Positions 37,305 through 42,986 of a DNA stretch of 46,777 bases are shown one piece after another; positions within the stretch are counted from its first letter, which is position 1, and each line of letters begins with the position of its first letter. A program made the translations under genes and the position numbers. This DNA is from Thermococcus sp. GTDB lineage: Archaea > Methanobacteriota_B > Thermococci > Thermococcales > Thermococcaceae. The notes beneath the pieces were generated by a model, which searched no databases, was not told where the DNA came from, and saw only the letters and a program-made list of their open reading frames with translations. Where the stretch lies: assembly GCF_015523185.1 (NCBI RefSeq), contig NZ_WAKV01000029.1, positions 1 to 46,777 of the forward strand, read 5' to 3'.

Positions 37305-39503
37305 ATGGGAAGAAGGGAAGAGATGATTGCGAAGATTAAAGAACTGATGACCCAGCCTGAGAGAATCAGGAACATGGGTATCGCCGCTCATATTGACCAC
37401 GGTAAGACAACCCTCAGCGACAACCTGCTCGCCGGAGCGGGAATGATTAGCGAGGAACTTGCTGGAAAACAGCTGGTCTTGGATTTCGATGAGCAGGAGC
37501 AGGCGAGGGGTATTACAATCAACGCGGCCAACGTCTCGATGGTCCACAACTACGAGGGCAACGACTACCTCATCAACCTGATTGACACTCCAGGTCACGT
37601 TGACTTCGGGGGTGACGTTACTAGGGCCATGCGTGCCATAGACGGTGCGATTATAGTCGTCGACGCCGTTGAGGGTGTCATGCCCCAGACCGAGACCGTT
37701 CTCAGGCAGGCCCTCAGGGAATACGTCAAGCCGGTTCTCTTCATCAATAAAGTTGACCGCCTCATAAAGGAGCTCAAGCTCGGCCCGAACGAGATACTCA
37801 ACCGCTTCGCCAAGATAATCACCGACGTCAACAGGCTGATAAAGAGATACGCCCCGGAGGAGTTCAAGAACCAGTGGCTGGTTAAAGTTGATGACGGTAG
37901 CGTCGCCTTTGGGAGTGCCTACTACAACTGGGCCCTCAGCGTTCCCTTCATGAAGAAGACAGGCGTTACCTTCAAGGACATCGTCGAGCTAACCAACGCC
38001 GGTGACCTTAAAACACTCAGGCAGAAGGCCCCGCTCCACGTCGTGGTTCTCGATATGGTCGTCAGGCACCTTCCGAACCCGCTTGAGGCCCAGAAGTACA
38101 GGATTCCGCACCTCTGGCAGGGCGACATAAACAGCGAGGTCGGTCAGGCCATGCTCAAGTGTGACCCGAAGGGCAAGATGGTCATGGTCGTGACCAAGAT
38201 AATCATTGACAAACACGCTGGTGAGGTCGCTACCGGCCGTGTCTGGAGCGGAACCGTCAAGAGCGGTAAGGAGGTCTACCTAATCAACAGCAAGAGGAAG
38301 GCCAGAATCCAGCAGGTCGGTATCTACATGGGTCCCGAGAGGATTAATATGGACGCCGTCCCGGCCGGAAACATTGTAGCGGTTACCGGTCTGCGCGACG
38401 CCATGGCCGGTGAGACCGTCGCCGAGGAGCCAATCGAACCGTTCGAGGCCCTCCACTACGTCAGCGAGCCGGTGGTTACCGTCGCCATTGAGGCCAAGAA
38501 CGTTAAAGATTTACCGAGGCTCATCGAGGCTTTGAGACAGCTCGCCAAGGAGGACCCAACGCTTCACGTCAAGATTGATGAAGAAACCGGTCAGCACCTC
38601 CTCAGTGGTATGGGTGAGCTCCACCTTGAGGTCAAGCTCGTCAAGCTCAAGGAGGACTGGAAGATTGACGTTGACGTTTCACCGCCGATAGTAGTTTACC
38701 GCGAGAGCGTCACAAAGCAGAGCCCAATCGTTGAAGGAAAGAGCCCGAACAAGCACAACAGGTTCTACATCACCGTCGAGCCCATGCCCGACGAGATTTA
38801 CGAGGCCATCAAGGAGGGTATCATTCCTGAGGGCAGGCCAAAGGACCCGAAGGCCGTCGCCAAGAAGCTCGCCGAGCTCGGCATGGACTACGAGATGGCC
38901 AAGGGTATCGTTGATGTCTACAATGGCAACATGTTCTTCGACAACACCAAGGGTATCCAGTACCTCAACGAGGTCATGGACTTACTCGTTGACGGATTCC
39001 ACATGGCCATGGATGAGGGACCGCTCGCTAAGGAGCCCGTCATGAAGGTCATAGTCAGGCTCCACGATGCCAAGATACACGAGGACAACGTCCACCGTGG
39101 TCCGGCTCAGATTTATCCGGCCATAAGGACTGCCATCCACTGTGCCATGATGAAGGCCGGCCCGGTCCTCTACGAGCCCTACCAGAAGGTCATTATCAAC
39201 GTGCCCTACGAGTACATGGGCGCCGTCAGCAGGGAAATCAACCAGAGGCGTGGTCAGCTCATCGATATGAGGCAGGAAGGTGAGGTCATGATTATCATTG
39301 CAGAGGCTCCCGTCGCAGAGATGTTCGGATTCGCGGGAGCGATACGTGGTGCGACCAGCGGAAGGGCCCTCTGGAGCACTGAACATGCGGGCTTCAAGCG
39401 CGTTCCGAACGAGCTGGCCCAGCAAATTATCAGGCAGATACGCCAGAGGAAGGGCCTCGACCCGAACCCGCCGACCGAGAAGGACGTCTGCCCGCAGCAG
39501 TGA
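37305..39503 (+). CDS. fusA: Translation elongation factor aEF-2
   Basis: GTPase of 732 residues that drives ribosomal translocation. G motifs: [14 protein letters not shown] (G1), [12 protein letters not shown] (G3), NKVDRL (G4). Domain IV ends with the diphthamide loop [15 protein letters not shown], whose second His is the likely modified residue. ATG 37305 is 4 nt after GGTGGTG. Codon use is strongly biased, as expected for a highly expressed gene. T-rich DNA (39505-39535) after the stop may terminate transcription. Confidence 0.98.
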
Positions 39504-39535: not shown

Positions 39536-39622
39536 GGATATAGTTCGTTTCCAACCTAATCCTCCCACCCAGAATAGAGAAGCCCAGATTTTAACAATCC
39601 GCGTTCAAAGGCGATTAGTTAA

Positions 39623-39632
39623 CTTTTTAAAC
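39623..39632 (+). promoter_or_regulatory. TATA box of the kink-turn RNA candidate
   Basis: CTTTTTAAAC, in the context GTTAACTTTTTAAAC, is centred 25-26 nt before the G at 39653 where the GC-rich structured element begins. Confidence 0.5.
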
Positions 39633-39652
39633 TCACCCCTCAAGTTAGGGTC

Positions 39653-39711
39653 GGAACTCATGAGGCCCCCCCGTAAACGGCGGGTTCCCCGCCCGAGGGG
39701 GCTGAGGTTCG
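39653..39711 (+). ncRNA. Candidate structured small RNA with a kink-turn
   Basis: A GC-rich block in an AT-rich gap that folds by hand into one long hairpin. The basal stem GAACU (39654-39658) pairs with GGUUC (39706-39710). The 3-nt bulge is CAU (39659-39661). The tandem sheared pair is GA (39662-39663) opposite GA (39704-39705). The next stem GGCCCCC (39664-39670) pairs with GGGGGCU (39697-39703). An internal loop CCGUAAAC/CGA is followed by stem GGCGGG/CCCGCC with a UUC loop. This is the canonical kink-turn recognised by L7Ae (compare CAUGAGG/CUGAGG with the U4 motif AAUGAGG/CCGAGG). It has its own TATA box at 39623-39632. Function unknown: a small RNA, or a leader element of EF-1alpha if transcription reads through. 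Confidence 0.6.
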
Positions 39712-39712
39712 A

Positions 39713-39747
39713 AAGATTTAAAAAGCCATCCTAGTCAACGAGACTAG
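39713..39747 (+). promoter_or_regulatory. EF-1alpha promoter and start-site inverted repeat
   Basis: AAGATTTAAAAAG (39712-39724) is the likely TATA box of EF-1alpha. A perfect inverted repeat CTAGTC-AACGA-GACTAG (39731-39747) covers the predicted start site (about 39743-39746), 25 nt before ATG 39772. It may be an operator or a 5' end hairpin. Confidence 0.5.
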
Positions 39748-39771
39748 ACCAAAATCTGGAGGTGTTTGAAA

Positions 39772-41058
39772 ATGCCAAAGGAGAAGCCGCACGTTAATAT
39801 AGTGTTTATCGGCCACGTCGACCACGGAAAGAGCACCACCATCGGAAGACTGCTCTTCGACACCGCCAACATACCGGAGAACATCATTAAGAAGTTCGAG
39901 GAGATGGGTGAGAAGGGTAAGTCCTTCAAGTTCGCTTGGGTCATGGACAGGCTTAAGGAGGAGCGCGAGAGGGGTATCACCATTGACGTTGCCCACACCA
40001 AGTTCGAGACCCCGCACAGGTACATTACTATCATTGACGCTCCAGGCCACAGGGACTTCGTTAAGAACATGATTACAGGTGCCAGCCAGGCTGACGCCGC
40101 CGTTCTCATCGTCGCCGCCACCGACGGTGTCATGCCCCAGACCAAGGAGCACGCTTTCCTTGCCAGGACCCTTGGTATAAACCACATAATCGTCGCCATC
40201 AACAAGATGGACATGGTCAACTACGACCAGAAGGCCTTTGAGAAGGTCAAGGCCCAGGTCGAGAAGCTTCTCAAGATGCTCGGCTACAAGGACTTCCCAG
40301 TTATACCGATTAGCGCCTGGGAAGGCGATAACGTCGTTAAGAAGAGCGACAAGATGCCCTGGTACAACGGCCCGACCCTCATCGAGGCCCTCGACCAGAT
40401 ACCCGAGCCGCCGAAGCCAACCGACAAGCCGCTCAGGATACCGATTCAGGACGTCTACTCAATCAAGGGTGTCGGTACCGTTCCCGTTGGTAGAGTCGAG
40501 ACCGGTGTCCTTCGCGTCGGTGACGTAGTTATCTTCGAGCCGGCGAGCACCATCTTCCACAAGCCCATCCAGGGTGAAGTCAAGTCTATCGAGATGCACC
40601 ACGAGCCACTCCAAGAGGCTTACCCGGGTGACAACATCGGATTCAACGTCCGTGGCGTTGGTAAGAACGACATAAAGCGCGGTGACGTTGCCGGACACAC
40701 CAACAACCCACCGACCGTCGTCAGGCCAAAGGACACCTTCAAGGCCCAGATAATCGTCCTCAACCACCCGACTGCTATTACAGTCGGATACACCCCGGTA
40801 CTGCACGCCCACACTACTCAGGTCGCTGTTAGATTCGAGCAGCTCCTCGCTAAGCTCGACCCCAGGACCGGTAACGTCGTCGAGGAGAACCCGCAGTTCA
40901 TCAAGACCGGTGACTCAGCCATCGTCATCCTCAGGCCGACCAAGGCCATGGTCATCGAGCCAGTCAAGGAGATACCGCAGCTCGGTAGGTTCGCCATCCG
41001 TGACATGGGCCAGACCGTTGCTGCCGGTATGGTTATCTCCATCCAGAAGGCCGAGTGA
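39772..41058 (+). CDS. tuf: Translation elongation factor aEF-1alpha
   Basis: GTPase of 428 residues that delivers aminoacyl-tRNA to the ribosome. G motifs: GHVDHGKST (14-22), [29 protein letters not shown] 39772 follows GGAGGTG by 7 nt. Strong codon bias indicates high expression. The uS10 gene starts 46 nt downstream, followed by tRNA-Ser, an arrangement widely conserved in archaea. Confidence 0.98.
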
Positions 41059-41629: not shown

Positions 41630-42838
41630 TCAATGGCGCCTTCTCCTATGTCTCGGCATGTTCTTTCCCCATCTTCGCCTGTACTCGTTCTCAAGCTCGT
41701 CCCTTCTCACCATCTCGCGGTACTCCCTAGGCAGTTCCTCGCTCAGCTCCGACTTCCTGACGTCAACGCCAGACTGCCTTGCTATATACCTAAACCTTCT
41801 CAGTTCCCCGGGTGCGATGAATGTTATCGCCTTACCCCTCTTACCCATCCTCCCCGTTCTCCCAATCCGGTGGATATATTGCTCCGCGTTCATCGGTATA
41901 GAGTAGTTAACAACATGAGTAATCTCTGGGACGTCCAGACCCCTAGCGGCAACATCCGTCGCAACCAGAACCCTTGTTCTGCCCTCCTTAAAGCGCCTGA
42001 AGGTTTTCTCCCGGGATGGCTGGCTCATGTCACCGTTAAGGGCCTCAGCTTTGAAACCGTCCTTTCTAAGCCTGCCGGCCAACTCCTTTGTCTCCACCTT
42101 CGTCTGGCAGAAAACTATACCGTAGAAGTTACCGCTCAGAATTTTCTGTAGGATTCTGTAGCGTCTCGCGGGAACGGTCTCTACAAACTCCTGCTCTACC
42201 TCACCCGGTACTAACTCGTCCCTGCTGACGATTACTACCTCCGGGTTTCTCATATACTTCTTGGCGAGTAAAAGCACTTCCATCGGCATCGTGGCCGAGA
42301 ACATCATGACGCGCTTTTCCCGGGGTGTTACCCTAAAAATCGCCTCGATGTCCTCCTGAAAGCCCATGTCCAACATCCTATCAGCTTCGTCAAGGACGAA
42401 GAAGCGAAGGGAGTCAAGCTTAAGGGTGCCACGCCTGATGTGGTCGAGAACCCTGCCGGGTGTTCCAACAACTATTTGGGCCGTTTTAAGGGCCCTCATC
42501 TGGGGACCTATTGGCTGACCGCCGTAGACCGCGTAGATGTCTATCTTCCGCTTTCCACGAAGAGAGCGGAGCTCCTCACTCACCTGAATTGCCAGCTCCC
42601 TAGTGGGAGTAAGGATAAGCGCCTGAACCCTCCTTTGTCCGGCCTCAACCATATCAAGGATTGGCAGGCCAAAAGCCGCCGTCTTTCCGGTGCCCGTCTT
42701 TGACTGACCAACAATATCATTCTCCCCCCGGAGAACAAGTGGTATGACCTCCCTCTGAACGTCAGTGGGCTCAAAAAAGCCCTTTCTCTCAACGGCCTTA
42801 ACTGAGGCCTCCGATAAGCCAAGCTCCTTAAAACTCAT
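41630..42838 (-). CDS. DEAD-box RNA helicase
   Basis: ATP-dependent RNA helicase of 402 residues. Motifs: Q motif F(22)EPTDVQ, motif I QSKTGTGKT (45-53), Ia PTRELA, Ib TPGRV, II DEAD (150-153), III SAT (181-183), V TDVAARGLD, VI HRIGRTGRMG. A basic tail (RRRWGKNMPRHRRRRH) may bind RNA. ATG 42838 follows GGAG by 8 nt; TTG 42844 in frame is less likely. It should unwind RNA during ribosome assembly or mRNA turnover. It is convergent with tRNA-Ser; the 113-nt gap between them holds no gene that I can see. Confidence 0.95.
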   Translation of the reverse strand: MSFKELGLSEASVKAVERKGFFEPTDVQREVIPLVLRGENDIVGQSKTGTGKTAAFGLPILDMVEAGQRRVQALILTPTRELAIQVSEELRSLRGKRKIDIYAVYGGQPIGPQMRALKTAQIVVGTPGRVLDHIRRGTLKLDSLRFFVLDEADRMLDMGFQEDIEAIFRVTPREKRVMMFSATMPMEVLLLAKKYMRNPEVVIVSRDELVPGEVEQEFVETVPARRYRILQKILSGNFYGIVFCQTKVETKELAGRLRKDGFKAEALNGDMSQPSREKTFRRFKEGRTRVLVATDVAARGLDVPEITHVVNYSIPMNAEQYIHRIGRTGRMGKRGKAITFIAPGELRRFRYIARQSGVDVRKSELSEELPREYREMVRRDELENEYRRRWGKNMPRHRRRRH

Positions 42839-42908
42839 TTCCAAATCTCCTTAAAGCTGAAGTCCTAAACGCGCTCCTTCTCAGAACGCGCCGAGGAGAA
42901 ACGCGTTT

Positions 42909-42986
42909 TGGCGGGCCGGGGGGGATTCGAACCCCCGACCTGCGGATTAAGAGTCCGCCGCTCTAACCAGGCTAAGCTACCGGCCC
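42909..42986 (-). tRNA. tRNA-Lys (CUU)
   Basis: On the minus strand GGGCCGG pairs with CCGGCCC, followed by G73 and encoded CCA (complement of 42909-42911). The anticodon loop CTCTTAA gives CTT. The T-arm is CGGGGGTTCGAATCCCCC. A TATA box (ATTTATAAATT, 43015-43025) lies about 34 nt upstream of the 5' end. Confidence 0.95.

Follow-up and report, generated by a model that had tools for sequence, protein, structure and literature searches.

The GC-rich hairpin upstream of the EF-1alpha gene in the 46,777-nucleotide stretch of Thermococcus DNA analyzed here (the window) is, with near certainty, the small RNA SscA (Rfam RF00063). The family is thus already known; our addition to it consists of an invariant kink-turn core at the base of the hairpin and a second, smaller hairpin, which are missing from the Rfam structure and visible in alignments of 65 to 84 sequences. 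SscA is reported, and so cited by later papers, to be a small RNA predicted in Pyrococcus furiosus in 2002.

Identity of the RNA and its transcripts in relatives

A covariance search had been proposed in a first, sequence-only reading of this DNA, which took the locus to be an unannotated RNA gene or a leader with its own promoter, located between EF-2 and EF-1alpha. The search returned RF00063 at positions 39653 to 39748 of the forward strand with 90.1 bits, over the full model (positions 1 to 96 of 96) and above the gathering cut-off of 60 bits. It therefore upheld the conserved RNA structure and removed the unannotated status, the RNA being Rfam SscA, also called sRk33; a new RNA family was dropped on the same ground. 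The window copy agrees with SscA in score, hairpin, embedded promoter, place before aEF1alpha and 5′ end. Both flanking genes were confirmed in the window, and a TATA-like box does precede the 5′ base of the hairpin (Table 1).

Expression as an RNA of about 100 nt is known from P. abyssi and T. kodakarensis. The P. abyssi RNA, sRk33, was detected on northern blots at 100 nt with similar intensity in every growth phase; its 5′ end lies at 636804 by primer extension, and it covers the predicted promoter of its downstream gene (PMC3124441). In T. kodakarensis, where the aEF1alpha gene TK0308 has a 118-nt leader, SscA is an abundant RNA contained in that leader, and its function “remains to be determined” according to that study (PMC4247193). 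Its level in T. onnurineus is lower in one growth medium (PMC5316973). When the published 5′ ends of P. abyssi (primer extension) and T. kodakarensis (dRNA-seq) were transferred through our alignment, with sequences L001 and L005 presumed to represent these two species, both fell on alignment column 58, which is window position 39654. This is within one base of the start near 39653 that had been predicted, so that reading the locus as a gene or leader RNA transcribed from its own promoter agrees with ends measured in two relatives. The 3′ end of the 100-nt P. abyssi RNA maps near 39754, an approximate position obtained from the alignment.

Table 1. Features of the SscA-EF-1alpha locus (window positions).
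Feature	Position	Strand	Basis or remark
EF-2 gene, other flank	37305-39503
Distal promoter of SscA (AGTTAACTTTTTAAAC)	39617-39632	+	97% mean column conservation; 3′ end about 22 nt from mapped 5′ end
TATA-like box within distal promoter	39624-39632
SscA RNA	39654-39754	+	5′ end mapped by alignment from two relatives; 3′ end approximate
C-stem, 5′ strand, GAACU	39654-39658	+	Fold; pairs in 96% of cells, no covariation beyond shuffles
Kink-turn bulge CAU (39659-39661) and GA (39662-39663), bulged strand	39659-39663	+	R-U-G-A in 84/84 genomes
NC-stem, 5′ strand, seven pairs and two beyond C.A mismatch	39664-39673	+	Covariation
A-rich one-sided bulge	39674-39678	+	Sequence and length vary
Apical hairpin GGCGGG-UUC-CCCGCC	39679-39693	+	94% conserved; double changes at three pairs
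NC-stem, 3′ strand	39694-39703	+	Fold, covariation
GA (39704-39705, non-bulged strand) and C-stem, 3′ strand, GGUUC	39704-39710	+	GA in 84/84
Proximal BRE/TATA promoter of EF-1alpha (CGAAAGATTTAAAAAG), inside SscA	39710-39725	+	93% conserved
Second hairpin CUAGUC-AACGA-GACUAG	39731-39747	+	Covariation; missing from Rfam structure
Predicted start of short EF-1alpha mRNA	39746-39748	+	TATA-to-start spacing of distal promoter applied to proximal promoter
Shine-Dalgarno GGAGGTG	39758-39764	+	Invariant save one genome (GGGGGTG in L095)
aEF1alpha gene	39772-41058	+	Start codon 39772; adjacent to SscA in 84/84 genomes

A covarying hairpin with an invariant kink-turn core

The sequence agrees with its earlier description, and RNAfold returned exactly the kink-turn that had been read from the letters. 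A five-pair C-stem (39654-39658/39706-39710) and a seven-pair NC-stem (39664-39670/39697-39703) are separated by the five nucleotides CAUGA facing the two nucleotides GA, an arrangement that has the 3-nt bulge and, next to it, the G.A and A.G tandem of a standard kink-turn. The fold has an energy of -32.0 kcal/mol (z = -2.46), and 3 of 200 shuffled sequences were equally stable. The GUAAAC that had been placed in an apical loop sits instead in the one-sided bulge, and no such loop exists.

Covariation is the strongest evidence for the hairpin. Over the whole structure 97.5% of the cells pair and 77 cells are doubly changed, compared with a mean of 16.3 in shuffled alignments, a level of covariation reached by none of 500 shuffles and by no slid version of the structure. 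When changes in the seven main NC-stem pairs were placed on a tree of EF-1alpha coding sequence, 56 were inferred; pairing was retained in every one, and 16 were double changes. The tree was built on 330 nt and is short, so these event numbers are rough. By the criterion of covariation in the alignment, the hairpin is proven.

The kink-turn pattern by itself is not significant, as three further chance matches of the same stringency occur on the other strand of the window. We consider the motif to be real because of its conservation: the G.A/A.G tandem and the bulged U are unchanged in 84 sequences, and the NC-stem covaries. All 84 have the core RUGA facing GA, whereas the stem next to it varies. 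As for the C-stem, its sequence is conserved and it covaries no more than shuffled alignments do. In two sequences of the P. horikoshii type (L091 and L093) it is disrupted, with two pairs lost beside the bulge and RUGA and GA retained. Since the core is invariant yet the C-stem shows no covariation and is broken in two sequences, the kink-turn is well supported and unproven. The proposed check for compensatory changes in relatives thus came out strongly for the NC-stem and empty for the C-stem, and the textbook kink-turn that had been read at this site stands in its core without compensatory change in the C-stem.

The invariant core suggests that L7Ae binds SscA. We infer binding because at 85°C the protein-free C-stem is predicted to be unfolded, and because the 3b:3n position is Watson-Crick or G.U (G-C, G-U or A-U in the alignment). 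By published rules, kink-turns of this kind fail to fold by ions alone, and every kink-turn tested folds with L7Ae (PMC6298567). The literature searched nowhere describes a kink-turn in SscA and holds no data on SscA-L7Ae binding; among the three kink-turn RNAs of Phok et al., the text names sRkB, sRkC and sRk52, not sRk33.

A second hairpin and a second promoter within SscA

The 3′ part of sRk33 has been called unstructured (PMC3124441), and it carries no pairs in the Rfam consensus. Across 65 sequences, the pairs of the second hairpin are retained in 95% of the cells, and its covariation score exceeds that of all 500 shuffles. The signal comes mainly from one pair, which occurs as GC, CG, AU and GU. 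On the gene tree, seven double changes fall at one pair. At 85°C the hairpin is predicted to be melted, and Pyrococcus has a weak version of it. The Pyrococcus loci L001 to L003, L091 to L095 and L107 share an identical CAAAAGTAGGGTTAGGC at the 3′ end of SscA, where the other genera have the covarying hairpin.

The EF-1alpha promoter lies between the main and second hairpins. Conservation reaches 97% in the distal box and 93% in the proximal BRE/TATA element, as against 61% in the spacer from the distal box to the RNA start and 53% upstream. In the P. abyssi homologue the proximal box is the putative promoter of the downstream gene (PMC3124441). If transcription from the proximal promoter begins at the spacing seen at the distal one, it would start near 39746 to 39748; both hairpins would then lie upstream of the short mRNA, whose start would be near the 3′ end of SscA.

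Distribution and neighboring genes

SscA turned up in 65 of 121 relatives in a first search; a second placed it above the cut-off in 84 of 115 genomes. All positive genomes belong to one family, the Thermococcaceae, and represent six genera; eight same-genus genomes lacking it are incomplete, with no assembled EF-1alpha start. Outside the family, the whole-genome search gave sub-threshold scores only (best E 0.063), and no standard kink-turn precedes EF-1alpha in 14 class-level relatives. The genome contains no SscA paralogues. In all 84 aligned loci SscA directly precedes aEF1alpha with its ribosome binding site and start. The EF-2 neighbor is present in just 27 of 65 loci, many of which have short flanks, and it is also missing in P. 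abyssi and others with 1.5-kb flanks. Because the EF-2 neighbor varies and the EF-1alpha adjacency is constant, SscA is linked to EF-1alpha.

Comparison with other RNA classes

The core RUGA/YGA resembles boxes C and D. In the window copy, guide, C′/D′ boxes, a two-sided pocket and an ACA box are absent, and no Rfam guide family matches at E values up to 10, in line with the earlier view that this is no ordinary guide RNA. Of the elements of a box C/D guide it offers just AUGAGGC and CUGA, with a closed hairpin between them, and neither a RUGAUGA/CUGA pair of boxes nor a guide. An H/ACA guide was rejected as well, because the internal bulge is one-sided and the kink-turn is followed in the window by GGUUCGAAAG. 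Some other genera read UUACAG at the position of GGUUCGAAAG. In L054 to L057 and L063, from other Thermococcaceae genera, GGUUACAG lies just 3′ of the hairpin, versus GGUUCG in Thermococcus, giving an ACA triplet that is probably there by chance. A match to the c-di-AMP riboswitch on the other strand is attributed to chance (E 9.5). A short ORF from the AUG of the bulge (24 codons in the window) was rejected, because its spacing from the promoter falls in all three classes modulo 3 and because the frame closes after 4 or 5 codons in 13 of 84 sequences.

A close parallel is the leader of the l7ae mRNA (Daume 2017, PMC5539422; Huang 2019, PMC6298567), which likewise has a C-stem too weak without protein and a 3b:3n pair unfavorable to ion-induced folding. 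In contrast to that leader, the SscA kink-turn is remote from the ribosome binding site, the downstream gene is EF-1alpha and L7Ae binding is putative. A leader of the L7Ae autoregulatory type would have its kink-turn beside or over that site, whereas here the site lies at 39758 to 39764 and the kink-turn at 39654 to 39710. The P. abyssi RNAs sRkB and sRkC (PMC3124441) are also thermococcal small RNAs with kink-turns, sRkB being derived from a leader; they are repetitive, species specific and shown to bind L7Ae, whereas SscA is single copy and universal in the Thermococcaceae examined. Elsewhere in the window, a tRNA-Lys (42909-42986, reverse strand) directly precedes a DEAD-box helicase gene (41630-42844, reverse strand), the same arrangement that has been reported in T. 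kodakarensis for TK0306 and its 159-nt leader (PMC4247193).

Possible function of SscA

We tentatively propose that SscA is a promoter-overlapping leader RNA that is bound by L7Ae and released as a stable RNA of about 100 nt, although the mechanism as a whole is somewhat more likely to be wrong in part than right throughout. The distal promoter starts the RNA at 39654, the position mapped from two relatives, and the RNA folds into the covarying hairpin with the invariant kink-turn core at its base, after which come the embedded EF-1alpha promoter and the second small hairpin. The kink-turn would be bound and stabilized by L7Ae, and the bound leader would be separated just before the ribosome binding site to yield the stable RNA. 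EF-1alpha would be made partly from the short transcript of the proximal promoter, and distal transcription across that promoter would be tied to free L7Ae through SscA, which may act in cis through the stability of the leader or through promoter interference. For P. abyssi, maturation of the leader and occlusion of the promoter have likewise been proposed (PMC3124441).

SscA might instead act mainly in trans, as an RNA-protein particle built on L7Ae whose position at EF-1alpha only ensures high, growth-coupled transcription. In favor of such a particle are the stability and abundance of the RNA of about 100 nt in both P. abyssi and T. kodakarensis and the unchanging kink-turn core, but the A-rich bulge and the loop of the second hairpin vary in sequence and length, leaving no conserved target-binding stretch, and SscA is never seen away from EF-1alpha; we find this reading somewhat unlikely. 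A cis role is more likely than one in trans, because SscA is always at EF-1alpha and lacks a conserved unpaired stretch for a target.

SscA might also regulate translation of the long EF-1alpha mRNA in cis, with L7Ae altering ribosome access as in the l7ae leader. In several archaea L7Ae does repress the mRNA that encodes it, by way of a kink-turn in the leader (PMC5539422; PMC6298567), and in T. kodakarensis SscA is contained in the EF-1alpha leader. The kink-turn is nevertheless about 50 to 100 nt upstream of the ribosome binding site rather than adjoining it, and the predicted accessibility of the site at 85°C is nearly equal in the long leader (0.66) and the short one (0.61). Neither anatomy nor folding thus supports a simple masking of that site of the kind seen in the l7ae leader, and we regard this reading as unlikely.

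Promoter interference alone, in which transcription from the distal promoter runs across the core promoter of EF-1alpha and yields the RNA only as a by-product, was suggested in PMC3124441 and would fit the location of the proximal BRE/TATA element inside SscA; it is improbable, as strong RNA covariation and an invariant kink-turn core are unexpected for a by-product. It is very improbable that the second hairpin acts as DNA, as an operator at which a repressor would control the proximal promoter: it forms a perfect inverted repeat just 3′ of the TATA box and its 6-bp RNA stem is predicted to be melted at 85°C, but G-U wobble states are common, fitting RNA and not a DNA palindrome, and a genome-wide operator motif was rejected, the exact repeat occurring once in the genome and inexact copies about as often as a control pattern.

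Returning to the L7Ae-bound leader, one could go further and see in SscA a sensor of L7Ae that couples EF-1alpha expression to the free level of a protein shared by ribosomes and guide RNPs, through a leader that holds the second promoter of the gene; this is doubtful. We suggest adding the kink-turn and the second hairpin to the Rfam model. If L7Ae binds, SscA, on record since 2002, would gain a concrete partner that is cheap to test, and a ribosomal protein would be linked to the gene of a central translation factor of these archaea.
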